From an uncultured Clostridia bacterium (GTDB taxonomy: Bacteria > Bacillota > Clostridia > Oscillospirales > Ruminococcaceae), in NCBI GenBank assembly GCA_947631535.1, contig CANRLU010000005.1, positions 1 to 52,202 on the forward strand: a DNA stretch of 52,202 bases. The letters are read 5' to 3'. Made by a program: the position numbers and the translations under genes. Of this stretch, positions 17,754 through 50,548 are shown one piece after another. The notes below the pieces were generated by a model. The model did not search any database. It was not told the origin of the DNA and saw only the letters and a program-made list of their open reading frames with translations. Each line of letters begins with the position of its first letter. The first letter of the stretch is position 1.

Positions 17754-17810
17754 ATAAGAGTAGCTAATAATGTATTAGTGTATAAAATCAGCGAAAAGGG
17801 AGGCCTTTCA

Positions 17811-30432: not shown

Positions 30433-30461
30433 TTGACACCGCGCTTTCACTTTGATATAAT
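30433..30461 (+). promoter_or_regulatory. consensus promoter at the head of the composite transporter cluster
   Basis: TTGACA (30433-30438) and TATAAT (30456-30461) have 17-bp spacing, a perfect vegetative promoter. It is about 155 bp before the first gene, leaving a long leader. Confidence 0.85.
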
Positions 30462-30616
30462 GTAACCAATAAATCGCGATAAGTCTCAACTGAATATCGT
30501 TAAGTGAGAGCAAATATTTATTTTCCGTTTGTGAAAATAGTATTTGCTTGAACTCGTTTATGAGATTTGCACTATTGATTTGTGCAAAATGCACAAACAC
30601 GCCCTATGGAGGAAAA
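30462..30616 (+). promoter_or_regulatory. long structured 5' leader, possible cis-regulatory RNA
   Basis: The ~145-base leader holds at least two stem-loops. GCAAATA (30510-30516) pairs with TATTTGC (30541-30547), continued by ATTTTC/GAAAAT inside. TTTGCAC (30566-30572) pairs with GTGCAAA (30582-30588). The ribosome site GGAGG is at about 30608. There is no T tract or known riboswitch core that I recognise, so any regulation would be by an unknown ligand or protein, or by RNA stability. Confidence 0.4.
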
Positions 30617-31294
30617 ATGGCAGAACTACTTACCGCCCGCAACGTCACTCGGGACTTTATCATCGGAGACGGGAGCGTGGTGCACGCGCTCAAAGGCGTT
30701 AATATCGACGTCGCAGAGGGCAGGCTCACGATTTTAAAAGGGCGCTCGGGCTCGGGAAAAACTACCCTGATAAATATGCTCGGCGCGCTCGACAGGCCCA
30801 CCTCGGGAGAGGTGATATTCGACGGCCAGGATATAACCAAGCTCAGCGATTCAAAGCGCGATGAGATCAGGCGCTATCAGATGGCGTTCGTGTTCCAGTC
30901 GGTGGCGCTGATGAGCTCGATGACGGCCTACGAAAACGTTGATTTCGGGCTGAGGCTCGCGGGATTCCCGCTTGATAAGCGCAAAGAAAGGGTCACAAAG
31001 TGCCTCGAAGAGGTAGGCCTTGCAAAGAGGATGCATCACCGCCCAGGCGAGCTCTCGGGCGGCGAGCAGCAAAGAGTCGCAATAGCGCGCGCTCTGGCTC
31101 ACGAGCCGAAGATAATCTTCGCCGACGAGCCCACCGCCGAGCTCGACTCGGGAACCAGCCACCATATCGTCGAGCTCTTCAAAACGCTCGTTTTGGACGA
31201 ACATATGACGATAGTTATGACTACGCACGACGTCAGCCTTCTTGAGATCGCCGACCGCGTTTATACCCTTGAGGACGGTGAGATAGTTGACTAA
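30617..31294 (+). CDS. LolD/MacB-type ABC ATPase (first)
   Basis: A 225-residue ATPase of the LolD/MacB/FtsE group, which pairs with FtsX-type permeases. Walker A GRSGSGKTT is near residue 43, the Q-loop in FVFQSVALMSSMTAYENV, the signature LSGGEQQR near 142, Walker B IIFADEPTAELD near 160, and the switch His in VMTTHD. GGAGG lies 5 bases before the ATG at 30617. No permease follows directly; the second ATPase overlaps its end by 8 bases. The only FtsX-type permease in the window is at 47213-50032, in the same cluster. The Walker A first residue is Arg where the family often has Pro or Thr. Confidence 0.9.
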   Translation: MAELLTARNVTRDFIIGDGSVVHALKGVNIDVAEGRLTILKGRSGSGKTTLINMLGALDRPTSGEVIFDGQDITKLSDSKRDEIRRYQMAFVFQSVALMSSMTAYENVDFGLRLAGFPLDKRKERVTKCLEEVGLAKRMHHRPGELSGGEQQRVAIARALAHEPKIIFADEPTAELDSGTSHHIVELFKTLVLDEHMTIVMTTHDVSLLEIADRVYTLEDGEIVD

Positions 31295-32249
31295 AAAGAA
31301 GAAGAAAAAGCTCGAACACGAGCAGGAACTCATCGCCGAAAGCGAGTACGCGATCGAGTGCGAAAACCTCGTTAAGATCTATAAGACCGACCAGATAGAG
31401 GTCGTGGCGCTGCAGGGGCTCGACCTTCAGGTGAAAAAAGGCGAGCTTGTGGCGATAGTCGGAACCTCGGGCTCGGGCAAATCGACACTTTTGAATATGC
31501 TCGGCGGCCTCGATAAGCCCTCGGCCGGTAGCCTTACCGTAAACGGCCGAAACCTCCTCAAATTCACCGAGGAAGACTATATGATCTATAAGCGCAACAC
31601 CGTCGGGTTCGTTTGGCAGAACAACGCCCGAAACCTCGTCCCTTACTTAACTGCGGTGCAGAACGTCGAGCTGCCGATGCTGCTCCAGGGGCAGAAGGAG
31701 AGAAGAGCAAGAGCTCTCGAGCTCCTCGACGCCGTGGGCCTCTCGAACAGGCTCAATTCCAGGCTCGACCAGATGTCGGGCGGCGAGCAGCAAAGAGTCG
31801 CAATAGCGATATCCCTTGCGAATAACCCCGCTATCCTCCTCGCCGACGAGCCCACAGGCTCTGTCGATACGAAAACCTCAGACCAGCTTTTGCAGGTCTT
31901 CAAGGATATAAACGAAAAGCGCGGCGTAACGGTCGTCATAGTCACCCACGACCTAAGGCTCGCAAAACAGGTCAACCGTGTGGTCGCCATTCGCGACGGC
32001 AGGACTTCGAGCGAAATAATCAAAAAGTCCCACGCGGAGATAATGAGCGAGTCGAAGGGCTGGGACAACGGCGAAGAGCCCGCGCCGGAAGAGCAGGAGG
32101 TCTCGGAGGAGCTGGTGGTCCTGGACAGAACAGGGCGTCTCCAGATTCCGAAGGAATACCTCGAAGCGCTTGAAATCAAGGGCGGTTCGAAGGTAAAGGC
32201 AGACCTCGATCTTGAGCAGGAGAGGATATACATCCACAAGGCTCAGTAA
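31287..32249 (+). CDS. LolD/MacB-type ABC ATPase fused to an AbrB-like domain (second)
   Basis: A 320-residue protein. A lysine-rich head (KKKKKK) leads to a LolD/MacB-type ATPase (about residues 25-245) with Walker A GTSGSGKST, signature MSGGEQQR, Walker B ILLADEPTGSVD and the switch His in VIVTHD. After an acidic linker (about 250-275), the last ~45 residues (VLDRTGRLQIPKEYLEALEI, then KGGSKVKADLD) match the swapped-hairpin AbrB/SpoVT fold, which usually binds DNA or serves as a dimerisation unit. The start is TTG at 31287, overlapping the first ATPase; no later Met fits. The fusion is unusual. The pair of ATPases could make the two motor sites of one double FtsX permease. Confidence 0.85.
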   Translation: MTKKKKKKLEHEQELIAESEYAIECENLVKIYKTDQIEVVALQGLDLQVKKGELVAIVGTSGSGKSTLLNMLGGLDKPSAGSLTVNGRNLLKFTEEDYMIYKRNTVGFVWQNNARNLVPYLTAVQNVELPMLLQGQKERRARALELLDAVGLSNRLNSRLDQMSGGEQQRVAIAISLANNPAILLADEPTGSVDTKTSDQLLQVFKDINEKRGVTVVIVTHDLRLAKQVNRVVAIRDGRTSSEIIKKSHAEIMSESKGWDNGEEPAPEEQEVSEELVVLDRTGRLQIPKEYLEALEIKGGSKVKADLDLEQERIYIHKAQ

Positions 32250-32316
32250 CCATTTTTATAACCCCTATAACGGAGAAAATATATCGCACTCCAATTAAAC
32301 GAAAGGTGGAATTACA

Positions 32317-35232: not shown

Positions 35233-35248
35233 GGAGGGAGGAATAAAT

Positions 35249-36196
35249 ATGGCAAAGGAAAAAACAGTCGAAAGAAAGAAGCCCATTGAACCGGGCAGCT
35301 GGCGCCACACTCTCCACGAAATGAAGATGAATCAGGCGTGCTACTGGATGATGCTTCCTTTCTTCGCGCTCTTCACGGTCTTCACGGTCATACCGGTCGT
35401 CATGTCGCTGCCTCTCGGATTGACCAGCTTTAACCTCGTTCAGTTCCCGCGCTACATAGGCCTTCAGAATTTCTATTCGCTCTTCGTAAACGACGACGTC
35501 TTCCTTATCGCGGTAAAGAACACGCTCATCTTTGCGATATTCACCGGCCCGTTCTCTTATGTACTCAGCTTCATTCTTGCCTGGCTCATTAACGAGATGA
35601 ACCCCTTCCTGAAGGTATTCTTCACCTTCGTGTTCTACGCCCCGTCGATGACCCCTTCGGCGTTCGTTATCTGGCAGCTCGTCTTCTCGGGCGACTCCTA
35701 CGGATACCTTAACTCGGTCCTCCTCGACCTCGGCATTATCAACACCGCCAAGCAATGGCTGACCGACGTCACTTATATGATGACGGTAGTTATCATAGTT
35801 CAGCTCTGGACTTCGATGGGCGCGGGCTTCCTCGCTCTTCGTGCCGGCTTCCAGGGTATAGACACCGCCCTTTACGAGGCGGGCGCCATAGAGGGCATAC
35901 AGAACCGCTTCCAGGAGCTGTTTACCATCACGATCCCCGCGATGGGTCCCTCGCTCCTGTTCGCCGCCGTTCTCGCCATTTCGGGTGCTTTCACCGTCGG
36001 CTCGGTCGGCGCGGCCCTCTGCGGTATGCCGTCAACAGCTTACGCCGTTCATACGGTTATGAACCACGCGCAGGACTACGGCTCTATCCGTTACGAAATG
36101 GGCTACGCTTCGGCAATATGCTTCGTACTCTTTGCGGTAATGCTTATATGTAACCAGCTGATCCGCAGAGTGCTGAGCAAATTCACCGATAACTAA
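35249..36196 (+). CDS. sugar ABC importer permease, MalF type (first pair)
   Basis: A 315-residue permease of the binding-protein-dependent sugar importers. It has about six transmembrane helices, starting with ACYWMMLPFFALFTVFTVIP near residue 30. The ATPase-docking EAA loop is visible as EAGAIEGIQNRFQELFTITIP near residue 210, shown here in two parts for the helix and the loop. AAGGAGGGAGG lies before the ATG. It is encoded 16 bp after the binding protein and 15 bp before the second permease. No ATPase is encoded with them. Confidence 0.92.
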   Translation: MAKEKTVERKKPIEPGSWRHTLHEMKMNQACYWMMLPFFALFTVFTVIPVVMSLPLGLTSFNLVQFPRYIGLQNFYSLFVNDDVFLIAVKNTLIFAIFTGPFSYVLSFILAWLINEMNPFLKVFFTFVFYAPSMTPSAFVIWQLVFSGDSYGYLNSVLLDLGIINTAKQWLTDVTYMMTVVIIVQLWTSMGAGFLALRAGFQGIDTALYEAGAIEGIQNRFQELFTITIPAMGPSLLFAAVLAISGAFTVGSVGAALCGMPSTAYAVHTVMNHAQDYGSIRYEMGYASAICFVLFAVMLICNQLIRRVLSKFTDN

Positions 36197-36211
36197 AGGA
36201 GGGGAATATAA

Positions 36212-37189
36212 ATGGCTGAAACTTTAGTAAACAACGCCGCGATAACCGACTCGCTCGAAGCCGAGAACGCAAAGGCGCTGAAAAAGCTCAGAAAGCGTCA
36301 GAAAAAAAGAGGAAGCATTGAAAACGCGAGAGTCAAGAAGTCAAAGGGCAAGCACATCAACGGCTCGCTGGGCGGCGATATCGCAATATTCATTCTCCTC
36401 GCCCTGCTGGGATTATTCATGCTCTTCCCGCTCTATTATTCGATAATCCAGTCGTTCAAGCCCATAAGTGAGCTGTTCGTATTCCCGCCTAAGCTTTACG
36501 TTATTTCTCCTACGGGCGAAAACTTCTCGAACCTCTTCAAGGTCGCAGGAAACCTTTGGGTGCCATTCTCGAGATACGTGTTCAACTCGGTGTTCATCAC
36601 CATAGTCATCACGCTTATGCACGTGTTCGTGGTCTGCTGCTGCGCATACTGCCTCTCGAAGTGCCGCTTCCCTGGATATAACTTCCTCAACCAGCTGATA
36701 GTTACCTCGATGCTCTTCACTTCTACCGCGACCTGGATCATGCAGTTCGTCGTTATGGCGAAGATGCATATGATCAACACCTACTGGGCGCTTATCCTTC
36801 CTTCCGTCGCCACTTCGATGGGACTTTACCTGATGCGTCAGAATATGTCCACCATCAACGACGCCATTATCGACGCCGCCAAGGTTGACGGCGCGGGCGC
36901 CTTCCGCACCTGCTGGCAGGTAGTCATACCCAACCAGAAGCCGGCTATCGCCACCCTTATAATCTTCGTCTTCCAGGGCGCCTGGAACGTTCAGGGCGGT
37001 GCGCTGGTCTACAAGGAAGACCTCAAGACTCTGCCCACCATCATGTCGCAGATCGCCGCTTCGGGTATCGCGAGGCAGGGCATCATCTACGCGTCCGCCG
37101 TCGTTCTTATGATCCCTCCGCTTGTCATCTTCCTCATTGCCCAGAGTAATGTTATGGAGACCATGGCCAACTCGGGTATGAAGGATTGA
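36212..37189 (+). CDS. sugar ABC importer permease, MalG type (first pair)
   Basis: A 325-residue MalG-type permease that would form a heterodimer with the preceding one. An N-terminal basic cytoplasmic extension (about residues 20-52, rich in Lys and Arg) precedes six helices; the first begins IAIFILLALLGLFMLFPLYY. The EAA loop is DAAKVDGAGAFRTCWQVVIP near residue 225. AGGAGGGG lies before the ATG. The long basic head is not typical of MalG and recurs in the second permease pair of this cluster. Confidence 0.92.
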   Translation: MAETLVNNAAITDSLEAENAKALKKLRKRQKKRGSIENARVKKSKGKHINGSLGGDIAIFILLALLGLFMLFPLYYSIIQSFKPISELFVFPPKLYVISPTGENFSNLFKVAGNLWVPFSRYVFNSVFITIVITLMHVFVVCCCAYCLSKCRFPGYNFLNQLIVTSMLFTSTATWIMQFVVMAKMHMINTYWALILPSVATSMGLYLMRQNMSTINDAIIDAAKVDGAGAFRTCWQVVIPNQKPAIATLIIFVFQGAWNVQGGALVYKEDLKTLPTIMSQIAASGIARQGIIYASAVVLMIPPLVIFLIAQSNVMETMANSGMKD

Positions 37190-37226
37190 TCTTTAAAACC
37201 AAAAATATAAAGAAAGGTGATAAGCG

Positions 37227-38897
37227 GTGAGAAAAATGAAAATCAAAAAGCTAATAAGTATACTGCTCGCTGCGGTTCTTGCCGTTATGACTATGTCGGC
37301 AACGGTGAGCGCGGTAGACCCGTATACAACATACAACTACGACGCCTGGTTCAACGCGATCCCCTCGCAGGCCGGCTATGAGGTAGTTGCCACCTACGAT
37401 TCGGTGACCATGCACCTTGAGCAGCTCTCCGATCCCAACAGCGAATTCTTCATCAGCGAAGACGAACCCGCAACGATGTCGGATATGAAGGACTTCTTCC
37501 TTTCTCCCAAAAACGAGTTCTACATAGTTGATACAGGCAACAACCGCATAATCAAGACCGACCTCGAATTTAACCTCCTTGCCTGCTATAAGAACTTCCC
37601 CGGAAGCTACACCAAGCACACTATAGTAGACGATCAGGGCAACGAAACGGTCGTTGACGCCGATGAGCTCAAGTCGCCTTACGGCATCTTTGTTGACGAG
37701 GACGACGTTATGTACATCGCCGACAGAGATAACCAGCGCGTTGTAAAGTGCGTCGAAGAGACCAAAACGAGCGCAAGGATACTCAGCGAGTATTACCGCC
37801 CCGAGACCGAGCTCTACGATTCAGTTTCGTTCTACTGCACAAAGGTCCTTGTAGACGCTGCCAAAAACGTTTACGTCCTCTGTCCGGCGGTCAATAAGGG
37901 CGCTATAATGTTCTCGGATTCCGGTTCCTTCGTCGGATACTACGGAGCCAACCGCGTTGAAGTTACCGCGGAGGTTATAAGGAACAAGATCTGGAGAAAG
38001 ATAGCCTCGGAAGAGCAGCTTGCCTCGCTCGTAAGGCTCACTCCTGTTGAATACGCCAACTTCGATATCGACAAGGAAGGATTCATCTGGACGGTAACCG
38101 AAGTCGCCAACGCCACTACCGACGCCGTTAAGAAGATGAACCCCGCCGGATACAACATCCTCGAAAGAACGGCCGACAACAATCAGTTCGGCGACCAGAT
38201 ATCGGTCACCTACAACGGCACCACCTATGCCACCCGTCTGACTGACATTACGGTTTCCGAAGACGGCTTCGTCAATATCCTCGACTACACCTCGGGCAGA
38301 GTATTCCAGTATGACGAGCGTTGCAATCAGCTCCTCATATTCGGATTCGACCAGGAGGAGCAGCGCGGCGGATTCTACAACCCCAACGCCATAGAGTCTC
38401 ACGGCGACAATATCTACGTCCTCGACGGCAGAAACTGCGATATAACCGTCTTCGGCCTCACCGAGTTCGGCAGATACGTCCACGAGGCCATAGCCCTTCA
38501 CAACAGAGGCCTCTACGCAGAAGCCTACGATATCTGGCAGGAAGTCCTCAAGCGCGACGGCGGCTTCTATATGGCTCTCCTCGGCACCGCCAAGGCCCTG
38601 TATAATCAGGACGACTACGAGGGCGCTATGAAATATGCGAAGCTCGCTTTCAACGATACCGACTACGATAAGGCTTTCGAGGCCAACCGCCAGGAAATGC
38701 TCAGAGACAACTTCACGATGTATGTGGTGATAATCCTGCTCGTGGTAGTGGCGTGGATAGTTATAAACGTTCTGAAAAAGAAGAAAAAGATCCCGCAGAA
38801 GCTTATAGCTACCGGCGTTTCGATAGTTGTTGAAAAGGGCAAGACCCTTATTCAGAATATTGTAGCGAAAGCACAGAAAGGGGGCAAGGGTAAATGA
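37227..38897 (+). CDS. membrane-anchored beta-propeller/TPR protein
   Basis: A 556-residue protein starting at GTG 37227 (AAAGGTG 7 bases upstream). A signal peptide ends near SATVSAVDP. NHL/six-bladed-propeller-type repeats follow (about residues 75-410), with blades such as FYIVDTGNNRIIKTDLEFN and MYIADRDNQRVVKC. Then come a TPR-like helical pair (about 415-480, ALHNRGLYAEAYDIWQEVL), one membrane helix (about 495-515) and a basic tail. The propeller and TPR parts should lie outside the cell, as binding or scaffold modules. A 4-base overlap with the YIP1 gene suggests that the two proteins work together. The function is unknown. Confidence 0.8.
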   Translation: MRKMKIKKLISILLAAVLAVMTMSATVSAVDPYTTYNYDAWFNAIPSQAGYEVVATYDSVTMHLEQLSDPNSEFFISEDEPATMSDMKDFFLSPKNEFYIVDTGNNRIIKTDLEFNLLACYKNFPGSYTKHTIVDDQGNETVVDADELKSPYGIFVDEDDVMYIADRDNQRVVKCVEETKTSARILSEYYRPETELYDSVSFYCTKVLVDAAKNVYVLCPAVNKGAIMFSDSGSFVGYYGANRVEVTAEVIRNKIWRKIASEEQLASLVRLTPVEYANFDIDKEGFIWTVTEVANATTDAVKKMNPAGYNILERTADNNQFGDQISVTYNGTTYATRLTDITVSEDGFVNILDYTSGRVFQYDERCNQLLIFGFDQEEQRGGFYNPNAIESHGDNIYVLDGRNCDITVFGLTEFGRYVHEAIALHNRGLYAEAYDIWQEVLKRDGGFYMALLGTAKALYNQDDYEGAMKYAKLAFNDTDYDKAFEANRQEMLRDNFTMYVVIILLVVVAWIVINVLKKKKKIPQKLIATGVSIVVEKGKTLIQNIVAKAQKGGKGK

Positions 38898-39529
38898 TTT
38901 ATGATATGAAACCGTGGCAATGGGTAAAGCATGTTATCTTCCACCCGACCGAAGGCTATGAGGATATGAGATGGAAGAAAGCCGGCTCGATAAAAATTGC
39001 CTTCTTCATCGTTTTCCTGCTCTTCTGCTCTCAGGTATTTTCCGCGAGATACGGCGGATTCGCCTATAATATGAAGGCTTATTCCGACGTATTCAACATC
39101 GTCCCGATACTCGTGCAGTCAGTCGCCTACTACGCCACTTGGGTAGTTGCCAACTGGAGTATCTGCACCCTGTTCGACGGCGAGGGAAATATGCGCAGGG
39201 TAGCCATTTACACAGCATACGCTCTGGTCCCGTACATCGTCTGCAACTTCCTTGCAACCCTTATCTCCTACGGGATTACGCTCGACGAAAGCATTTGGTA
39301 TACCGCGATATCGCAGGTAGGGCTTTGGTGGTCGGTAGTTCTGATGGTATTCGGAATGAAAGCCTGCCATCAGTACAACTTCACCATGACGATAGTCAGT
39401 ATGATATGCACCGTGCTCGGAATGGTGCTCATCCTCTGCCTGTTGGCACTGGTTATGTCGCTCTTCCAGCAGGTATACGTTTTCTTCGCAACCATCTACA
39501 CCGAAATACTCTACAGAGTAAGAAGCTGA
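38894..39529 (+). CDS. YIP1-family membrane protein
   Basis: A 211-residue membrane protein with the YIP1-domain layout. A short amphipathic start with WQWVKHVIFHPTEGYEDMRW is followed by about five transmembrane helices, including WSICTLFDGEGNMRRVAIYT and ALVPYIVCNF in the middle. The family is widespread in bacteria with unknown role; in eukaryotes it is linked to membrane traffic. The start codon overlaps the stop of the propeller gene (ATGA). In Firmicutes, YIP1 genes are often found beside DUF5696 and sugar-transport genes, as far as I recall. Confidence 0.85.
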   Translation: MIYDMKPWQWVKHVIFHPTEGYEDMRWKKAGSIKIAFFIVFLLFCSQVFSARYGGFAYNMKAYSDVFNIVPILVQSVAYYATWVVANWSICTLFDGEGNMRRVAIYTAYALVPYIVCNFLATLISYGITLDESIWYTAISQVGLWWSVVLMVFGMKACHQYNFTMTIVSMICTVLGMVLILCLLALVMSLFQQVYVFFATIYTEILYRVRS

Positions 39530-39551
39530 CACAGCAGAAAGTGAGTAAATT

Positions 39552-42074
39552 ATGAAAAACACATTTCTAAGATTACTGGCTTGCCTGCTTGCAGCGGCAA
39601 TCCTGATTACAGCAGCTGCGTTCCCCGCGTTCGCCGATGAAAACGAAGCGGGCGCAGATGCCGGCACCGAAGACGTGGAGACCACCGAGCCCGCCGAGGG
39701 CGACGCCGAAGCTCCTGCAGACGGCGAAGAAGCTCCCGCAGACGAAGAAGCTCCGGCCGACGGCGAAGAAGTCCCCGCAGAGGGCGAAGAGGCCCCTGCC
39801 GAGGGAGAAGAAGTTCCCGCAGACGAGGCTGCCGGCGAGGAAGAGAGCGAATTTGACGAGACCGTCGCTCTCATCACCGACGAAGAGGCTCTTGCCTCCT
39901 GCCAGGTGGCTGCCGAGAACGACAGCTTTATCCTCTACTACGATCCCGGCGTTGAAGACGCCGAGCTCGAGAGAATAGCGATCTACGTCAAAGAGACGGG
40001 CGAGCTCATCTGGACCAACCCGATAAACGCTCTTGCCGATACCTCGACCAATAAATCGAGCCTTCGCGAGAACCGCCTCTCAAACCTCTCCTATAAGTAC
40101 GGCAACGCTACCGACCTCATCACCTCCTCGGCGTTCCTTTACTCCTACCGTCAGTCCACCTCTCGCGGCAACACCAAAATGGAGCCCGTTGAGGGCGGCC
40201 TCAAGGTAACCTACAAGCTCCAGACCGCCAACGCCACCGTTCCCGTTTACTTTATCCTCGAAGACGAGTACATCGACGTTTACATCAACACCGACGAGAT
40301 AAAGGAATCGAACGGCTACGACCCCGAGGTTGAGGACGATCAGTCGAAATCTAACGACACCATCATTCTCACCGAGCTCGGACTTCTGCCCTATGTGGGC
40401 GCCGCCACTACCGACGACGAGGGCTATATGCTTGTCCCCGACGGTTCCGGCACCGTAATAAAGCTGAATAACGGCAAGGGCAACTATTCCGACTATTCGC
40501 AGACCGTCTACGGCCGCGACATAACCCAGGTAAGAGAAAACGCCCCCGACCAGACCGAGCAGGCTTATCTGCCGGTAATGGCAATGGTAAAGGGCAAGAC
40601 GGGACTTGTTACGATAGCCGCCTACGGCGACACCTTCGCCAATGCGAACGCCGCTGTAGCCTACTCCAAGAGCGAAAACTCGTGGTATAACAGCTGCTAC
40701 TTCTCGTTCACGCTCCGCTCTAACGACAACTACTATATGACCGGCGACTCCACCGCCATTATAGTGTTCGAAAAGGGCGACGGTACCATAGGCGTCCCGA
40801 AGGTAGGCGTAAGGCTCTATCCCGTAGTCGCCAAGGGCGACACCGTCACCGTGGCCGAGATAGCCGACGTTTACAGGAACTACCTCATCGAGGAAAAGGG
40901 CCTTACCAAGCAGGAAGCTGCCAACGATTCCGCGCTTTACATCGACTTCTACGGCGGCACCCGCAAGTCTAAGTCGATACTCGGTATCCCGATAGGCCTC
41001 AAGACCGCTTTCACCGCCTTTGACGAAGCGACCGACATAGTCACAAAGCTTCAGGAACTCGGAGTTGACAATCTGGTCGTCAATTACAACGACTGGTCTG
41101 ACGACTCTATGAGCAAGAAGATCGACACCGGTTCCTCGATAGCCTCAGTTCTCGGCGGCAAGGGAGCCTACAAAAAGATGCTCAAGGCGTTTGCCGATAC
41201 CGGCGTCGATTACTACGCCACCGTCTCGGGAATAACCTTCAGCTCTAACGGCAACGGCTTCTGGACTCTCTTTAACACCGCTTACAGAGTTTCGAAGTCC
41301 TATTCGAGGCAGTACACCTATAACATAGCCTACGGTACGCCCGATTCCGGCGTTGCTCCCGCCCTTATGAGCCCGAGATCAATAGAAAAGCTCTCCGCAA
41401 AGGTCACCAAGAACCTCGGCAAATTCGAGCAGGGCGCAGGCCTCGGACTTGTCTCCAACACACTCTGGAGCGACTTCTCGAATAAATACCGCACCAACCG
41501 CTATGCCACCGCGCAGTATGTCGTGGATTATTACAAGGCGGCTATCGAGTCGAACGGCAAGGTAATAGCCGACGCGCCCAACGCCTACGTCATTCCTTAC
41601 GTTAGCAGGGTGAACAACCTCACTCTTCAGTCGAGCCAGTTCAAGGTGTCGGACTACGACGTTCCGTTCTATCAGATGGTCCTCCACGGATATGTGGACT
41701 ACTCCTGCGAAGCCGTAAACGGCACGCCCGATACCACAGTGGCGGTCCTCAAGGCAATAGCCGCAGGCTCGAATATCCACTTCGACTTCATCAACGAAGA
41801 AGCCACCGAGCTCGTCAACACCGATTATGTTGACCGCTTCTACTGTACCGCAGAGGGCTGGCTCGAAGAAGCCGCAGGTGCATACAAGCTTGTTGACGAG
41901 GTCCTGACTCCGGCGAAAGACGCCACCATCACCGATTACGTTATAGACGGAAACGTGATAACCACCACCTACTCCAACGGATACAAGACCGTTGTCGATC
42001 TCGGCACCGGCAATATAACCGCCGGCGGCAAGACCTATAACTACACCGAATACGTCAAAGGAGGTAAGGACTAA
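39552..42074 (+). CDS. secreted DUF5696 protein, possible glycan-active enzyme
   Basis: An 840-residue secreted protein. The signal peptide ends at AAFPAFADE. Residues about 35-105 are an acidic low-complexity region of imperfect EEAPADGEE/EEVPAEGEE repeats. The rest matches my memory of DUF5696: a beta-rich part (about 115-440, with TLIL-ELGLLPYVGAA- and YMLVPDGSG-type segments) and a barrel-like part (about 450-790, ALYIDFYGGTRKSKSILGIP, then LGVDNLVVNYNDWSDD). The fold resembles alpha-galactosidase-type glycoside hydrolases, but no activity is known to me and I cannot name catalytic residues. There is no lipobox or membrane segment after the signal. Its stop overlaps the next permease start (TAATG). 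Confidence 0.75.
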   Translation: MKNTFLRLLACLLAAAILITAAAFPAFADENEAGADAGTEDVETTEPAEGDAEAPADGEEAPADEEAPADGEEVPAEGEEAPAEGEEVPADEAAGEEESEFDETVALITDEEALASCQVAAENDSFILYYDPGVEDAELERIAIYVKETGELIWTNPINALADTSTNKSSLRENRLSNLSYKYGNATDLITSSAFLYSYRQSTSRGNTKMEPVEGGLKVTYKLQTANATVPVYFILEDEYIDVYINTDEIKESNGYDPEVEDDQSKSNDTIILTELGLLPYVGAATTDDEGYMLVPDGSGTVIKLNNGKGNYSDYSQTVYGRDITQVRENAPDQTEQAYLPVMAMVKGKTGLVTIAAYGDTFANANAAVAYSKSENSWYNSCYFSFTLRSNDNYYMTGDSTAIIVFEKGDGTIGVPKVGVRLYPVVAKGDTVTVAEIADVYRNYLIEEKGLTKQEAANDSALYIDFYGGTRKSKSILGIPIGLKTAFTAFDEATDIVTKLQELGVDNLVVNYNDWSDDSMSKKIDTGSSIASVLGGKGAYKKMLKAFADTGVDYYATVSGITFSSNGNGFWTLFNTAYRVSKSYSRQYTYNIAYGTPDSGVAPALMSPRSIEKLSAKVTKNLGKFEQGAGLGLVSNTLWSDFSNKYRTNRYATAQYVVDYYKAAIESNGKVIADAPNAYVIPYVSRVNNLTLQSSQFKVSDYDVPFYQMVLHGYVDYSCEAVNGTPDTTVAVLKAIAAGSNIHFDFINEEATELVNTDYVDRFYCTAEGWLEEAAGAYKLVDEVLTPAKDATITDYVIDGNVITTTYSNGYKTVVDLGTGNITAGGKTYNYTEYVKGGKD

Positions 42075-43117
42075 TGGCTGAAACCAATAACGCGGCTGTC
42101 GAGACCGCTCCGGAAGTCAAGGCTCCGAAGGTAAAGGCGCCAAAGGTGAAAGAGCCCAAGGCTCCGAAGCCCGAAAAAGCGGCAAAGGCCGAAAAGGAAT
42201 CGAAGCCCAAAAAGCAGAGAGGCCTAAGAATACCTTATGAAAAGCGCAAAGCGCTGTATGCCTACGGCTTCCTTGCAATATGGATAATCGGCTCGCTCTA
42301 CTTCTTCTTAAGGCCGCTTCTGGTCTCGCTCTGGTATTCATTCAACGAGACCGCCGTAAAGCTGGGCTATATGGAGACCAAGTTCATCGGTATTCAGAAC
42401 TACATAAAGGCGTTCCGTGAGAACACCGAATATACCGAGGCTCTCCTTTCGGTCCTTTCCAACACCCTCTGGAAGACTCCGCTTATAATCATCTTCTCGA
42501 TATTCATAGCGGTAATACTCAACCAGAAGTTCCGCGGCAGAACGTTTGCCCGTGCCGTATTCTTCCTCCCCGTTATCATCGCCACCGGACCTGTCCTCAG
42601 CATAATCAACGGCGATATGGATACTTCGGGATATTCGGGAGGCGCCGAGCAATTCTCGACGATGTTTGAAACGGATATGACCGGCGCGCTGTTCAACTTC
42701 CTCGGAGTTTACAACATAAGCGATAAGGTCACGGATATGATCTCAACGGTCACTTCCAACGTCTTCAACCTGGTGTGGAACTCCGGTATCCAGATAATCA
42801 TCTTCCTCTCCGCGCTTCAGAACATTCCCTATTCCGCCAAGGAAGCCGCCTCTATCGAGGGTGCAACGGCCTGGGAGTTCTTCTGGAAGATCACTATCCC
42901 CTACATCAGCCCGATGATAGTCACCAACCTCATCTACACGATAGTTGACTCCTTCATCGACCCGAACAACAGCGTTATGACACTGGTTCTTGCTCGGGCG
43001 TCGGCTTGGTATCACGGGGAATCGGCAGCTATGGCGTGGGCTTACTTCCTCATAGTAATTCTCGCGCTCTGCATCGTGCTTCCGATAATCAACAAATTTG
43101 TTTACTACGAAGTATAA
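42074..43117 (+). CDS. sugar ABC importer permease, MalF type (second pair)
   Basis: A 347-residue MalF-type permease with an unusual ~60-residue cytoplasmic head made of Lys/Pro/Ala repeats (KAPKVKAPKVKEPKAPKPEK), resembling histone-H1-like tails. Six helices follow, from about residue 65 (YAYGFLAIWIIGSLYFFLRP). The EAA loop is EAASIEGATAWEFFWKITIP near residue 255. The start overlaps the stop of the DUF5696 gene by one base, so translation is coupled. It is a second permease pair in one cluster with only one binding protein. Confidence 0.9.
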   Translation: MAETNNAAVETAPEVKAPKVKAPKVKEPKAPKPEKAAKAEKESKPKKQRGLRIPYEKRKALYAYGFLAIWIIGSLYFFLRPLLVSLWYSFNETAVKLGYMETKFIGIQNYIKAFRENTEYTEALLSVLSNTLWKTPLIIIFSIFIAVILNQKFRGRTFARAVFFLPVIIATGPVLSIINGDMDTSGYSGGAEQFSTMFETDMTGALFNFLGVYNISDKVTDMISTVTSNVFNLVWNSGIQIIIFLSALQNIPYSAKEAASIEGATAWEFFWKITIPYISPMIVTNLIYTIVDSFIDPNNSVMTLVLARASAWYHGESAAMAWAYFLIVILALCIVLPIINKFVYYEV

Positions 43118-43131
43118 GGGAGGGATATTGA

Positions 43132-44286
43132 ATGGCAACTGCAAAAGAAGAAAGACAGTTCGCAAAAGAGCGCGAAAAAGCTCTTAAAGAGCGCGCCAAG
43201 GCCTATAAGGCCGCCAAAAAGGCCGGCACTCTTGACGAACGCATTATCTCGCCCGAACACATAAGGTATATGCGCCGCAGGGCTATAATAAGCAAGGTTT
43301 GGCCCTTCTTCCGCTTCCTCATCCTCTTTGGGCTCTGCTTCGTAATTCTCTATCCTCTTATCTACATGTTCTCCACGGCGTTCAGGCCCAACGTCCAGAT
43401 GACCGACCCTTCGGTAATCTGGCTGCCTAAGTCGCTCACTATGAGCAATATGATCGACGTCTGGGAGACCATGGACTTCGGCCCCACCCTCTGGAACACC
43501 CTGAAGCTCAATATAGTCTGCTCGCTTCTGTCGGTCGTTGTCTGCGCAATAACCGGCTACGGCCTCGCAAGATTCAACTTCAAGGGCAAGGGAATCTGCT
43601 TCGCGCTGGTAATTATGCAGATAATCGTTCCTCCGCAGATAACCGTTATCCCGCTTTATCTCCAGTATGCCTTCTTCAAGGGCTTCGGCCTCGTAAAGCT
43701 GCTGCATGTCCTCGGAGTAAAGCAGATAGCCTACAGCGCCACCCAGGAGCCGAAGATGATCCAGGAGATCATGACCCCCGCGGGCGAGCCCACGGGCCAG
43801 TGGTATGTTTCGCTCATCAATATTCCGATAGTTATGTATGCCCCCGCTATATTTGCAAACGGCATAAAGTCGGGTCTGTTCATCTTCATCTTCCGCCAGT
43901 TCTTCCGCGGACTGCCGATAGAGCTTGAAGACGCCGCCTACCTCGACGGCTGCGGCCCGTTCAAGACCTTTATCAGAATAATGGTTCCTAACGCTTCCAC
44001 TTCATTCCTCACCGTCTTCCTCTTCGCGATAGTCTGGTATTGGAACGACTTCTATATCAGTTCCACGTTCTTCACAAGTAACCACACCGTCGCACTTCAG
44101 CTGAGAAAGCTCTCGGATTCGCTCGACCAGCGGCTGTTCAGCGGCCAGCAGGTGGGTACGAGGAAGAAAATCGTATGGCTCGAATCCGGCTGTCTGCTTT
44201 CGATAGCGCCGATCCTCGTTATGTATGTATTCCTGCAGAAATACTTCACCGAGGGTCTTGCAAGATCCGGTCTTACCGGTATGTAA
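43132..44286 (+). CDS. sugar ABC importer permease, MalG type (second pair)
   Basis: A 384-residue MalG-type permease, longer than the usual ~280. It has a charged Lys/Glu/Ala-rich helical head (about residues 1-50, EREKALKERAKAYKAAKKAG) and an inserted loop in the middle (about 195-225, including SATQEPKMIQEIMTPAGE). Six helices are visible, the first near residue 60 (FFRFLILFGLCFVILYPLIY). The EAA loop is DAAYLDGCGPFKTFIRIMVP near residue 265. GGAGGGATATTGA lies before the ATG. Confidence 0.9.
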   Translation: MATAKEERQFAKEREKALKERAKAYKAAKKAGTLDERIISPEHIRYMRRRAIISKVWPFFRFLILFGLCFVILYPLIYMFSTAFRPNVQMTDPSVIWLPKSLTMSNMIDVWETMDFGPTLWNTLKLNIVCSLLSVVVCAITGYGLARFNFKGKGICFALVIMQIIVPPQITVIPLYLQYAFFKGFGLVKLLHVLGVKQIAYSATQEPKMIQEIMTPAGEPTGQWYVSLINIPIVMYAPAIFANGIKSGLFIFIFRQFFRGLPIELEDAAYLDGCGPFKTFIRIMVPNASTSFLTVFLFAIVWYWNDFYISSTFFTSNHTVALQLRKLSDSLDQRLFSGQQVGTRKKIVWLESGCLLSIAPILVMYVFLQKYFTEGLARSGLTGM

Positions 44287-44301
44287 TTCTCAATTACGCA
44301 A

Positions 44302-44334
44302 AGCCTGCCGTCTTCAGCGGACGGCAGGCTTATG
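44302..44334 (+). terminator. hairpin between the second permease pair and the GH26-like gene
   Basis: AGCCTGCCGTC (44302-44312) and GACGGCAGGCT (44320-44330) pair perfectly, but only TTATGG follows. It may attenuate transcription rather than separate two operons. Confidence 0.6.
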
Positions 44335-44385
44335 GCATGCTCGGCAAAAGCTTACAATAAAACCCCTCGGGAGTGTTGCATTTAA

Positions 44386-45969
44386 ATGAAGAGAACGGTT
44401 TCCTTGCTCCTCTGCGGGCTTCTTTTGCTGTCGGGGTGTTCTTTTTCGCAGCCAGACGGCGAAGCTGCAACGTCCGCTCCCGATACGCCTGAGGTGACTT
44501 CTGCCGAAGTAACGACTCTTCAGACGGAAGCGACCACCCAAAGCGAAGCTCCGGCAATAGAGGCGCCTCATTTTCCGGAGGCGGAGCCCACCCATTTTGA
44601 ATATGCCCCTGCCGATGCGGAGCTGCTCATCGAGGCCGAAGACGGTCTTTTGGGCGGGACCGCGCAGATAACCGATTCCCGCGAGGGATACTCGGGCAGC
44701 GGGTGCGTGAACGGGATATTCGGTGGCGGAGGGCTTTTGCTCGAGGCGGAGATACCCGCTTCGCAGCACTACCACATCACCCTTAGAGCTGCTTCCGACG
44801 TTCCCGTAAGTGGGCGAATCGTTGTGAACGGCGCTCCGCGGGGCGAGTTCGAGCTGTCGGGCGTCGGAAGCTTTGAGTCCGTAAGGTTCGACAATATCTA
44901 CCTCGCCAAAGGCACCGCGCAGATATCCTTTGCCGACCTCACCGCCGACGCCGATATAGACTGCGTGATGCTCAATAACTCCGAAGATGTCCTCGGGCTC
45001 GACTACGGTCTCAACGGCGCTCTTTCAAACAAGTATGCCGACGAAAGCGCGCAAAAGCTCTATTCCTATCTGCTTTCCTGCTACGGAAGCAAGGTGCTCT
45101 CGGGGCAGCAGTGCTCGCAGGGCAGCAACGGCGAGTTCGACCGCGTTTACGCGCTCACGGGCAGATATCCCGCCATACGCTTCGGCGAGCTTATGGACTA
45201 CACCGTCGGCAGCGACACCGGCGACATAGAGCTCGCGCTCGAATGGGCGGAGTCGGGCGGGATCGTGGGCTATGTCTGGAACTGGCCTATGGTGGGCTCG
45301 GTATATCGCAGCAAAACCTCTTTTGACCTCGAAAAAGCCGTCACCAACCTCGATATTGCCGCTATGGGGAGCGGCGCTCTCGAACTCAGATACACTTCGG
45401 GAGACATCACGGCCGAGACCCTTGCCGTGATAGACGGCATCGACAAGGTATCGCAGCAGCTTTTAAGGCTTAAAGACGCCGGAGCGGCAGTCATCTTCAG
45501 GCCTCTTCCCGAGGCGAGCAGCGGGCTGTTCTGGTGGTCTGAAAGCGTTGAGAGCTACCTGTGGCTCTACAAGCTCATTTACGAGCGAATGACGCTCTAC
45601 TGGGACCTCGGAAACCTGATATGGGTGTGGAACGGTCAGAGCGCGGATTGGTATGTGGGCGACGGCTACGCCGACATCATTTCGCTCGACGTTTATTACC
45701 CAGAAGACGAAACGCCACCCCAGCCCAGCGGCGTGAACTTTATTCTCGCGGCATCAAAGATATCGGCGGCAAAGCCGATAGCTATGAGCGAGTGCTCCGA
45801 CCTCCCGTCGCCCGACGGCATAGAGGCGGACAGAGCCTATTGGCTCTACTGCTCGGCCTGGACGGGAGACTATTCGGCGGGCGGAAAATATATGCAGGAC
45901 GGCGAGTGGGTGCAGTTTTACAACAGCACGGCCGTCATTGCAAAGGATGAAATCGATTACGTTCGGTAA
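44386..45969 (+). CDS. GH26-like glycoside hydrolase lipoprotein with a carbohydrate-binding module
   Basis: A 527-residue lipoprotein (lipobox LSGC, Cys18) with a Thr/Glu/Ala linker to about residue 75. Then comes a CBM35/CBM6-like module (about 80-205, ELLIEAEDGLLGGTAQITDS) and a GH26-type barrel (about 220-525). GH26 contains beta-mannanases. Visible GH26 landmarks are KVLSGQQCSQG, TGRYPAIRF, VWNWP, the acid/base Glu376 in RPLPEASSGLFWW, LIWVWN, and the nucleophile candidate Glu469 in IAMSECSD. The residue before Glu376 is Pro where GH26 enzymes normally have His (RPLHE), so activity or substrate may be altered. It would cut glycans at the cell surface for the importers encoded upstream. 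Confidence 0.8.
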   Translation: MKRTVSLLLCGLLLLSGCSFSQPDGEAATSAPDTPEVTSAEVTTLQTEATTQSEAPAIEAPHFPEAEPTHFEYAPADAELLIEAEDGLLGGTAQITDSREGYSGSGCVNGIFGGGGLLLEAEIPASQHYHITLRAASDVPVSGRIVVNGAPRGEFELSGVGSFESVRFDNIYLAKGTAQISFADLTADADIDCVMLNNSEDVLGLDYGLNGALSNKYADESAQKLYSYLLSCYGSKVLSGQQCSQGSNGEFDRVYALTGRYPAIRFGELMDYTVGSDTGDIELALEWAESGGIVGYVWNWPMVGSVYRSKTSFDLEKAVTNLDIAAMGSGALELRYTSGDITAETLAVIDGIDKVSQQLLRLKDAGAAVIFRPLPEASSGLFWWSESVESYLWLYKLIYERMTLYWDLGNLIWVWNGQSADWYVGDGYADIISLDVYYPEDETPPQPSGVNFILAASKISAAKPIAMSECSDLPSPDGIEADRAYWLYCSAWTGDYSAGGKYMQDGEWVQFYNSTAVIAKDEIDYVR

Positions 45970-46040
45970 TTAGTATCATAAATATTACTTGCCGTATAAA
46001 TATATTTTACTTCAAACCATACCGATATCGCAATATGCTA

Positions 46041-46069
46041 TTGATTTATTCAAAAAATTCTGGTAAAAT
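46041..46069 (+). promoter_or_regulatory. promoter of the MacA-like gene
   Basis: TTGATT (46041-46046) and TAAAAT (46064-46069) with 17-bp spacing lie 46 bp before the start codon, in an AT-rich gap of 146 bp. The last three genes of the cluster may thus also be transcribed separately. Confidence 0.6.
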
Positions 46070-46115
46070 AGTGATAATTACGATTCGGCTTTTACATTTC
46101 GTTAGGAGGAACGTC

Positions 46116-47165
46116 ATGAAATTTTCAAAGGTAATTTCGCTCGCGCTCGCCGCGGCACTTATTCTCACCGCGCTGAGCGGCTGCTACTTCCTGCCCGAAG
46201 AGGAGGAGCTTTTGGAGGCACCTGTTGTAAAGGCGAGCGAAGTGTCATACACCACCACCACCGCCGAGCTCAAGGACATCACCCGCCAGGTGCTCACCCC
46301 GGGAACGATAGCCTCGGGTACAAGGTATGACGCGCGTTTTTCCGACGTTGGCGGCAACATAAAGGCTGTATATGTCTCTGCCGGAGATATGGTTGAAGAG
46401 GGGCAGCTTCTTGCCGAATTCGATACATATGAGCTCGACAACGAGATAGCCCTTATGGAGATGCAGCTCACCCGCGAAAAGCTCGAATACGAGATAGCGG
46501 TCGAAAAGCACGAATCCGAAAACGTAAAGGCCAAGGAGCAGCTCGATATCGACCTTATGCAGCTCGACCTCGACAAGCTCTATGCCGAAAAGGAAGCCGC
46601 AAAGCTCTATTCGCAGGTATCGGGCACTGTCTCATATGTTATGACCTGCTCCCCCGGCGACTGGGTCAACCCCGGCGTGACGGTAGTTACCGTTATCGAC
46701 ATAACCGACCTCTATATCGAGATAAACCCGAGCAGCGAAGTCGGCGAATTCCTCATCGGCAGGCCGATAACCATTCGCTACAACGGCGAATACTTCGACG
46801 GCACCATCGTGAGGAACAAGAGCGGCCGCCAGTGGGATGCCTCGGTCGAAGGCCCGCTTGTTGACGCCTCGGGCGAAGATGTGCTGGGCGAGATGTCGGA
46901 GAACATAGTCGTCAAGTTTGACGACATTATCCCAGAGTCCTCGGCCGTGGGTAACATTGCCGATACGCTCCTCGTGCTCGACAAGCGCGAGAACGTCATA
47001 GTGATCTCCGCAAACCTTGTCAAAAAGGTTGACGGGGTAGATTGCGTGTATGTGTTCAAAGACAACGAAAGAGTTAAGGTGAACGTAACTCTCGGCTTAA
47101 GAAGCGGTTCTACCGTTGAAATCACCTCCGGACTGGAACCCGGCGATGAAGTGATCATTCGCTAA
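46116..47165 (+). CDS. MacA-like periplasmic-adaptor lipoprotein
   Basis: A 349-residue membrane-fusion-type protein. The ATG at 46116 follows TTAGGAGGAACG; the earlier in-frame start is inside the promoter. A lipobox LSGC (Cys23) anchors it outside the membrane. The adaptor layout is seen as a lipoyl-like half (GGNIKAVYVSAGDMVEEGQLL near residue 87), an alpha hairpin (about 110-160), the second lipoyl half (SGTVSYVMTCSPGDWVNPG near 170), a beta barrel, and a C-terminal membrane-proximal part ending SGLEPGDEVIIR. In Gram-positives such adaptors serve MacB/FtsX-type transporters. The permease gene follows 47 bp downstream. Confidence 0.88.
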   Translation: MKFSKVISLALAAALILTALSGCYFLPEEEELLEAPVVKASEVSYTTTTAELKDITRQVLTPGTIASGTRYDARFSDVGGNIKAVYVSAGDMVEEGQLLAEFDTYELDNEIALMEMQLTREKLEYEIAVEKHESENVKAKEQLDIDLMQLDLDKLYAEKEAAKLYSQVSGTVSYVMTCSPGDWVNPGVTVVTVIDITDLYIEINPSSEVGEFLIGRPITIRYNGEYFDGTIVRNKSGRQWDASVEGPLVDASGEDVLGEMSENIVVKFDDIIPESSAVGNIADTLLVLDKRENVIVISANLVKKVDGVDCVYVFKDNERVKVNVTLGLRSGSTVEITSGLEPGDEVIIR

Positions 47166-47212
47166 ACTACACATAAGTAACACTCTTTGCCGACCTTTCA
47201 GGAGGACACTAA

Positions 47213-50032: not shown

Positions 50033-50054
50033 GCCTTAAAGAGGTAGTGATAAT

Positions 50055-50477
50055 TTGCTTTTCTGGATAACAGATAAGTCCGACAGATATCCCGTTATAT
50101 TCGGCTTCGCGCTTTTCGGCCTGATAAGCATAGTCCCCGGGCTGGCGATGCTTCTGGCGTCGCTCGTCGGGCTCGACCTAACCTACGCGATAATCGCCTA
50201 TGCGTTCGTGCTGCAATTTGTCCTTTGCCTATCGGTCGAGAGAACGATCCACCTTATGCTGCCGTTTATAGTGTGCATAATAAGTTTCGTGATTATGGAC
50301 GTCCTATACTTTGCGGCTATGTTTCTCAACGGAAGCGTGCCTCGGCAGGCCGTGGCGCTTATACTCGCCGTCGGAACAAACGGCGGCAGGGTGTTCGTCA
50401 CCGAGGTGCTCGGAATAGTCGCCTCGCTGATATGCTACGGGCTGTTCGTATTCGTGAGATCGCTGTTCAGAAAATAA
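50055..50477 (+). CDS. small membrane protein of unknown function
   Basis: A 140-residue membrane protein with four predicted helices (about residues 13-38, 42-58, 67-90 and 112-135). It starts at TTG 50055, with GAGG about 10 bases upstream, and lies 22 bp after the FtsX permease. I do not recognise a family. Its position as the last gene of the cluster suggests an accessory role for the permease. A strong terminator follows. Confidence 0.65.
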   Translation: MLFWITDKSDRYPVIFGFALFGLISIVPGLAMLLASLVGLDLTYAIIAYAFVLQFVLCLSVERTIHLMLPFIVCIISFVIMDVLYFAAMFLNGSVPRQAVALILAVGTNGGRVFVTEVLGIVASLICYGLFVFVRSLFRK

Positions 50478-50480
50478 TAA

Positions 50481-50519
50481 AAAATATCGGGTTCGGCTCA
50501 GCCGTTCCCGATATTTTTA
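50481..50519. terminator. bidirectional terminator at the end of the cluster
   Basis: AAAATATCGGG (50481-50491) pairs with CCCGATATTTTT (50507-50518). A and T runs lie on both sides, so it can stop the cluster on the plus strand and the histidine kinase transcript on the minus strand. Confidence 0.85.
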
Positions 50520-50548
50520 TACGTAGTGTATATTTCAGACTGTATATT

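Follow-up and report, generated by a model that had tools for sequence, protein, structure and literature searches.

The window analyzed here is a stretch of 52,202 nt from an uncultured Clostridia bacterium of the family Ruminococcaceae (assembly GCA_947631535.1, contig CANRLU010000005.1; the fifth contig of a genome of 2.1 Mb). It carries a 14-gene operon that combines genes for glycan uptake with genes of an FtsX/MacA-type ATP-binding cassette (ABC) unit, in the order ABC1, ABC2, giant binding protein, permeases A1 and B1, NHL-TPR protein, Yip1 protein, DUF5696 protein, permeases A2 and B2, GH26 protein, adaptor (membrane-fusion protein, MFP), double FtsX permease, and small membrane protein. 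We call the genes from the binding protein to permease B2 the core, and the two ATPases, the adaptor, and the FtsX permease the FtsX unit. At a probability of about 0.5, the locus would be one plant-polysaccharide utilization operon, in which an import core is functionally tied to a recruited Ykn/MacAB-like mechanotransmission unit. This reading draws on gene content, predicted folds, conservation, and repeated linkage, together with two readings of the trees, namely that the ATPase genes were captured once and that the two parts were jointly lost. The linkage in several lineages suggests that the FtsX machine and the core cooperate on plant polysaccharides.

Linkage of the FtsX unit and the core

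Among 197 genomes of the family, FtsX orthologues were clear in 36, the DUF5696 core in 62, and both in 21, the positives being the rows above a clear score gap by reading. The loci fell into several arrangements: one adaptor-FtsX-ABC1-ABC2 cluster in a genome without a full DUF5696 gene (A), ABC1-ABC2 immediately 5' of the core with adaptor-FtsX elsewhere (B), ABC1-ABC2 before and adaptor-FtsX behind the core (C; the window genus with near kin, and G461), and a core with no ABC1-ABC2 before it, in FtsX-less genomes (D). ABC1-ABC2 lay directly before the core in all 21 genomes positive for both, with some irregularities: a contig edge leaves just the ABC2 end in G467, ABC2 is short in G495, the binding protein is split in G446 and was kept that way, a 157-aa open reading frame (ORF) separates ABC2 and the binding protein in G432, and in G412 a further copy of the core has its front cut off (L122). 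In FtsX-less family genomes, none of the 37 core loci whose front is visible has ABC1-ABC2 there. The arrangement at L152 and L153 was judged by eye. In a scan with 11 candidates scored per genome, ABC2 orthologues above 300 bits occurred in 33 of the 197 genomes, with one match each at E 1e-60, and all 33 were FtsX-positive; in the other three FtsX genomes (G467, G427, and G575), ABC2 was present in the fetched loci.

Where the core was absent, ABC1 and/or ABC2 stood behind FtsX in 14 of 14 loci examined, of which L085, L087, and L090 show the four-gene cluster in part only; some of the FtsX-positive core-less genomes (e.g., G493, G427, and G575) have distant partial DUF5696 matches. This single cluster bears out the proposal of an earlier note on this DNA that the front ATPases and the back adaptor and permease are partners. 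The same note had proposed to test whether the ATPases, adaptor, and permease always bracket the same sugar genes and to search for co-occurrence of all 13 families it had listed. Neither is a general rule: among the loci examined, the full bracket was found only in G461, where GH26 is missing, and in the window genus with its near kin, where GH26 is included, and the core is far commoner than the FtsX unit and persists alone. Obligate travel of the whole set is ruled out by the arrangements seen.

In a named collection, taken as the best 80 of a longer list, 68 loci had a front that could be seen; ABC2 preceded the core in 29 of them, and FtsX was behind the core in six, all close kin of the window. 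Ruminococcus albus AR67 (L177) has ABC1-ABC2 before the core. ABC1-ABC2 do not precede the core in eight R. flavefaciens loci whose front is visible (L186, L205, L207, L208, L214, L215, L221, and L226). A weakly similar ABC gene (67-78 bits) lies upstream on the other strand in the first seven of these loci, and L226 lacks both.

The two gene sets also co-occurred more often than expected, in tests that treat genomes as independent even though they are not. In the family, the 21 genomes with both compare with 11.3 expected (1.9-fold, odds ratio 4.1, p 2.6e-4). In the class sample, the FtsX type was present in 36 and DUF5696 in 63 of 245 genomes, with both in 19 against 9.3 expected (2.0-fold, odds ratio 4.2, p 1.5e-4), and the phylum sample gave eight against 1.2 expected (6.6-fold, p 2.4e-6). 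Outside the family, G681, a member of another family, has MFP-FtsX directly before the core, in the order MFP-FtsX-SBP-A1-B1-NHL-TPR-Yip1-DUF5696-A2 (L240; SBP, solute-binding protein), and its ABC1-ABC2 are elsewhere (L241). MFP-FtsX has thus been joined to the core in three separate lineages, behind it in two and before it in one. The expectation that the MacAB-like and sugar parts are linked beyond chance is supported by the 21/21 front adjacency, the three MFP-FtsX joinings, and the 1.9-, 2.0-, and 6.6-fold co-occurrence.

Outside the family, 34 class genomes have FtsX; ABC2 adjoins it in 25 of these, is apart in seven, and was not found in two. ABC1-ABC2 away from both FtsX and the core also occur (L241 and L242). 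These two loci, from two other families, have similar-looking neighbors, a 425-aa reverse ORF and an ORF with an apparently aconitase-like start.

Evolutionary history

In a tree of 34 FtsX rows, arrangement A was separated from B and C with 100/100 support, and arrangement C appeared in two places inside B. The core tree was built from 37 of the 55 rows of a concatenated set (3440 columns), covering every one of the 19 loci that have ATPases in front and 18 of the 36 that lack them; it was a quick tree with no bootstraps and carried a warning on two long branches meeting (L101 and L009). In this tree, the ABC1-ABC2 loci require three changes and a single clade was rejected (AU, approximately unbiased test, p 4e-59), and a FastTree of all 55 core loci agrees with it. 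For ABC1-ABC2 in front of the core, the preferred reading is a single gain with two losses. The loss lineages have no FtsX orthologue either in the family scan; thus, the two halves, although mostly located at different chromosomal sites, apparently disappeared jointly on at least two occasions.

Organization of the operon

The features are listed in Table 1. All 14 genes between the promoter and the terminator lie on the + strand with intergenic gaps of -8 to +146 nt. The block is a real, mostly conserved operon. The co-direction described earlier stands, as does the description of genes overlapping or almost touching; the count of 13 does not, as the 140-aa gene at the end had been missed. 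The consensus promoter reported at the front of the block was recovered as the sole 12/12 match in the two stretches scanned, with the TG before its second hexamer, and the reported terminator was recovered by folding as a hairpin with a T-rich end, without being listed by a simple terminator scan. The hairpin in the leader between the promoter and ABC1 might have a regulatory role. A known RNA family in the leader was ruled out, with 0 Rfam matches at the gathering score in a search of 26300-52202. Gene calls were mechanical ORFs scored by phmmer with the window proteins. ABC1 most likely starts at the ATG at 30617, which has GGAGG upstream, and the adaptor most likely at 46116, where AGGAGG lies upstream and the length agrees with the 348-349 aa of genus relatives. 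Gaps of 99 nt before the GH26 gene and, given this adaptor start, 146 nt between GH26 and the adaptor were found. The latter contains a weak promoter-like match (9/12, 46041-46069), so a single transcript is likely for the whole block but not certain.

Table 1. Coordinates of the features in the window
Feature	Position	Strand	Remarks
MsmX/MalK-type ATPase	17778..18953	+	OB_MalK, TOBE
Extended sigma-A-type promoter	30433..30461	+	TTGACA-17-TATAAT, TG before second hexamer, 12/12 consensus match
5' leader, 155 nt	30462..30616	+	long hairpin, fold -37.5 kcal/mol
ABC1, LolD/MacB-type ATPase, 225 aa	30617..31294	+	Walker A/B, signature, H-loop intact
ABC2, LolD/MacB-type ATPase, 320 aa	31287..32249	+	C-terminal AbrB/MazE-like (swapped-hairpin) domain
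Giant extracellular solute-binding protein, 971 aa	32317..35232	+	signal peptide, no lipobox
CUT1 permease A1, UgpA-like	35249..36196	+	
CUT1 permease B1, UgpE-like	36212..37189	+	EAA-type motif
NHL beta-propeller (PknD-sensor-like) + TPR-like region	37227..38897	+	signal peptide, C-terminal membrane helix; TPR by eye
Yip1-family membrane protein	38894..39529	+	apparently fused to NHL-TPR in many relatives
DUF5696 protein (PF18952), secreted	39552..42074	+	predicted GH129/GH101-like fold: beta-sandwich + TIM barrel
CUT1 permease A2	42074..43117	+	
CUT1 permease B2	43132..44286	+	EAA-type motif
GH26 beta-mannanase-like lipoprotein	44386..45969	+	CBM35-like N-terminal module; E376, E469 present
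MacA-like membrane-fusion adaptor (MFP), lipoprotein	46116..47165	+	Pfam, NCBIfam, PDB
Double FtsX-domain permease, 939 aa	47213..50032	+	9 hydrophobic segments (crude scale)
Small membrane protein, 140 aa	50055..50477	+	matched in some genus members
Intrinsic terminator region	50470..50530	+	long hairpin, T-rich end, fold -23.2 kcal/mol

A histidine kinase gene (50549-51991, - strand), a possible regulator, is convergent with the operon end, and a reverse ORF of similar size also follows in L060, L159, L160, and L162 (compared by size only). Just 5' of the operon promoter, a 501-aa ORF (28673-30178, + strand) has an anchor-like hydrophobic C-terminus and no Pfam match. Further upstream in the window, an overlapping pair of ABC half-exporter genes (12873-14606 and 14603-16333, + strand) likely encodes a heterodimer.

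Components of the FtsX unit

The protein families read earlier from the letters were largely recovered by Pfam and NCBIfam, the TPR part of the NHL-TPR protein being seen by eye only and Pfam giving NHL alone. For both ABC1 and ABC2, the best NCBIfam match was LolD, below the equivalog cut-off and with the ATPase motifs intact, and no OB/TOBE domain was reported in the domain search. The AbrB/MazE-like domain at residues ~270-320 of ABC2 is kept in 60 of 61 orthologues. PF04014 was matched by 17 of 20 ABC2 C-terminal pieces at 0.01 (best 3.2e-9); the piece from the window scored 20.6 bits, below the 24.7 cut-off. In PDB, AbrB was matched at 0.0012. In the alignment, the ABC2 C-terminal consensus has replaced the AbrB arginine pair, presumably the DNA-contacting residues. 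The term "AbrB-like domain" had 0 occurrences in the limited literature set checked.

The adaptor matched PF13533 and PF16576 above the cut-offs, TIGR01730 at 3.4e-19 (69.0 bits, below the 94.9 cut-off), and MacA in PDB at 2.2e-9. The permease matched PF02687 in two stretches (1.9e-22), which indicates an FtsX/MacB-fold permease, and had no PDB match by phmmer at 0.1. The small membrane protein was matched in L159 and L160, weakly in L162 and L059, and not in L060, L161, L163, or L164. In our reading, the unit is a Ykn/MacAB relative recruited to the sugar core.

Components and distribution of the core

The giant binding protein consists of two N-terminal beta-sandwich domains, a helical bundle, and a C-terminal sugar-binding protein. 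Its best 50 Foldseek rows were sugar-binding proteins or maltose-binding-protein fusions; these alignments cover only ~400-430 columns, and thus the support for CBM35 in the two beta-sandwiches is weak. Binding proteins of Gram-positive bacteria are usually lipid-anchored. With a permissive pattern, a lipobox was found neither in the window protein nor in 114 of 123 family rows or 30 of 35 phylum rows. The strict EAA-type pattern was present in permeases B1 and B2 only, and looser versions were seen by eye in A1 and A2; A1 had no Pfam match at 0.001. The operon thus has the permease pair and sugar-binding protein of a CUT1 importer, and the genome has a MalK/MsmX-type ATPase. This gene, at 17778-18953, lies outside the region treated in the earlier note and is the sole OB_MalK match found in the genome, and its product likely energizes the sugar permeases.

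The predicted model of the DUF5696 protein (pLDDT, predicted local distance difference test, 82.6) showed the GH129 fold, and a phylum-wide DUF5696 profile reached PDB; the family-level (A4) profile had no PDB match at E<0.1. A glycosidase fold is therefore probable on the basis of the model. Compared with the GH129/GH101 glycosidases NagBb and ZgGH129, identity is 10-14%, and the conserved barrel acids, which may or may not correspond to the catalytic Asp/Glu pair of GH129, are the two aspartates D641 and D701 only; no glutamate was kept above 80%. The GH26 protein matched its family with 113.1 bits, and E376 and E469, which we take to be the GH26 catalytic pair, were present in 18 of 18 sequences. 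Its predicted activity is on beta-mannan, and other GH26 activities are possible. The match to the GH26 beta-mannanase of PDB 3zm8 spans the N-terminal module, presumably a CBM35, and the GH26 domain with both expected glutamates; unlike that enzyme, the operon protein is a surface lipoprotein in an importer operon.

DUF5696 (PF18952) was found in 46 of 398 phylum genomes sampled, 39 of them above the cut-off. In the 55 phylum loci fetched, some of which are cut by contig ends, the NHL-TPR, DUF5696, and permease pair 2 genes occurred together in 49, and the giant binding protein with permease pair 1 in 35. Yip1 was a separate gene in 18 of 55, the NHL-TPR protein was of fusion size in 34, and neither was seen in three. 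The Yip1 query matched 58 of 59 sequences searched (three being short duplicates), and in the first phylum locus set the adaptor and FtsX queries at E 1e-3 matched the window only. Yip1 as a marker of a YknWXYZ system here is ruled out by this difference. In the same set, ABC1-ABC2 preceded the core only in the window and in L055, which is of the same family. The core is also present in the rumen fiber degraders R. albus and R. flavefaciens. Within the best 80 of the named collection, the nearest relatives were uncultured Clostridia isolates named "Lapin" (presumably rabbit) and Oscillospiraceae, one of them from roe deer rectum, followed by Ruminococcus. The core is a separable gene set that recurs in the phylum and is apparently a form of CUT1 glycan uptake not described before.

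Downstream genes provide insight into the substrate. Among 66 proteins scanned of 94 listed for the family, GH95 occurred in 10, GH26 in four, and GH130 in three; among 67 of 104 listed for the phylum, conventional binding proteins occurred in 20-23, GH26 in five, GH43 in four, and GH42 in three. This content points to hemicellulose in general and to beta-mannan for the window genus. The core ligand probably varies between lineages, and the system probably imports plant hemicellulose, here beta-mannan.

Proposed mechanism and alternative explanations

In the mechanism that we propose, for which we infer the substrate, docking role, energizer, and mechanical coupling, the non-lipidated giant binding protein with its carbohydrate-binding-like domains would capture oligosaccharide. 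In the window genus, the GH26 lipoprotein would most likely make beta-mannan or galactomannan pieces, which the GH129-like DUF5696 protein may trim. The membrane-anchored NHL-TPR/Yip1 pair would dock the secreted proteins at the cell surface, and the two CUT1 permease pairs would import the products with ATP hydrolyzed by the MsmX-type ATPase. The adaptor, double FtsX permease, and ABC1/ABC2 would form a mechanotransmission machine that uses cytoplasmic ATP and acts on the surface assembly of the core, by release, loading, or activation of a bound protein or glycan. Repeated linkage and apparent co-loss suggest such coupling. The earlier suggestion that the two parts jointly sense, move, or process a surface glycan is likewise a hypothesis. 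A stronger version is rather doubtful: the FtsX/MacA machine would drive a capture assembly made up of the giant binding protein, the NHL-TPR/Yip1 dock, and the GH129-like enzyme, handing oligosaccharides to the two importers as a Gram-positive form of energy-coupled glycan capture, and the AbrB-fold domain on one ATPase would serve dimerization or regulation.

Several points weigh against a functional tie. Most genomes with the core lack the FtsX unit, and many with the unit lack the core. By coordinates, G681 is the one genome with FtsX and the core linked among 17 that have both in the class but outside the family, several class assemblies being fragmented so that contig ends could hide some linkages; none of six both-positive phylum genomes outside the class shows the linkage. 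The co-occurrence tests ignore phylogeny, and the absence of ABC2 from core-only genomes depends on the 11 candidates scored in each. Change counts are blind to gain versus loss, and the ATPase genes may have been gained repeatedly; the linkages behind the core, in turn, may be an old state that was often lost and not two separate gains. Lastly, the adaptor-FtsX genes may have their own promoter.

A serious possibility is that the adaptor, FtsX, and ABC1/ABC2 form an ordinary MacAB/YknXYZ-like exporter of a peptide, lipopeptide, or antimicrobial, co-regulated with the sugar operon for growth on fiber and with no physical coupling. The adaptor is MacA-like, the ATPases are LolD/MacB-like, the unit stands alone in the 14 core-less family loci, FtsX and its ABC2 are neighbors by coordinates in 25 of the 34 FtsX-positive class genomes outside the family, and Ykn/MacAB relatives are described as exporters (PMC4887032). 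Export by itself leaves unexplained the several ways in which the unit has joined the core (ABC1-ABC2 in front once, MFP-FtsX behind twice and in front once), and why ABC1-ABC2 stay with the core in 21/21 genomes while MFP-FtsX is mostly elsewhere. It is improbable that the linkage is a historical accident, in which one insertion of the unit beside the core was inherited and then rearranged. The single gain of the front ATPases and the lack of linkage in most genomes outside the family agree with such an accident, but the ABC2-core adjacency persists in 21/21 although the ORFs around MFP-FtsX, compared by size only, differ between genera except in close sisters, and, as a judgment, chance would seldom produce a separate front linkage in another family (L240) on top of the two back linkages. 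ABC1 and ABC2 come first in a sugar operon whose core has no MalK-type ATPase of its own, and they might be taken for the ATPases of the sugar permeases, the FtsX part being incidental. This is highly improbable, and we rejected it on the LolD/MacB type of both ATPases with no OB/TOBE domain reported, the MalK-type ATPase elsewhere in the window, and the distribution of ABC2, since ABC1/ABC2 accompany FtsX in core-less genomes and none were found in genomes that have the core but no FtsX.

Comparison with known systems and significance

An FtsX-type permease in FtsEX passes ATP energy to an extracytoplasmic partner. The operon likewise has an FtsX-type permease with a proposed extracytoplasmic partner, with the difference that it contains no peptidoglycan hydrolase gene and that the partner would be the glycan-capture assembly. 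YknW is the Yip1 protein of the four-component YknWXYZ system of Bacillus (PMC4887032). The operon shares with YknWXYZ and MacAB an MFP, an FtsX/MacB-type permease, a LolD-type ATPase in a monoderm, and a Yip1-family protein in the same block, but it has a double FtsX domain in a single chain and two different ATPases, and its Yip1 is part of the sugar core and is also present, often as an apparent fusion with NHL-TPR, in loci that have no FtsX unit next to the core. By analogy, a role of the unit as an exporter of a substrate is a candidate only. The cello-oligosaccharide transporter of Anaerocellum bescii is described as a Gram-positive CUT1 importer fueled by MsmX/MsmK (PMC12838199). Such importers also combine a binding protein and CUT1 permeases with no ATPase in the core and an MsmX-type ATPase elsewhere, whereas the present operon has two permease pairs, one giant non-lipidated binding protein, and the added NHL-TPR, Yip1, DUF5696, and FtsX machine.

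No description of the cluster or the core, and no paper on DUF5696, was found in the open-access literature searched, mostly at the level of titles and abstract openings, in agreement with the earlier view that no described system has the full set. The cluster was not described in the available parts of PMC4887032, PMC4300822, PMC12838199, and PMC8579813, and the cellulose-induced ABC operons of R. albus 7 in PMC4300822 could not be tied to the core.

Taken together, the core is a conserved glycan-uptake set, previously undescribed as far as we found, in about one in ten of the phylum genomes sampled, and DUF5696 gains a probable assignment to a glycosidase fold from its predicted model. The repeated pairing of the core with the FtsX unit makes it possible to test directly whether a mechanotransmitting and an importing ABC system are coupled. 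To our knowledge, an ABC mechanotransmitter powering the surface steps of an ABC importer would be the first known case.

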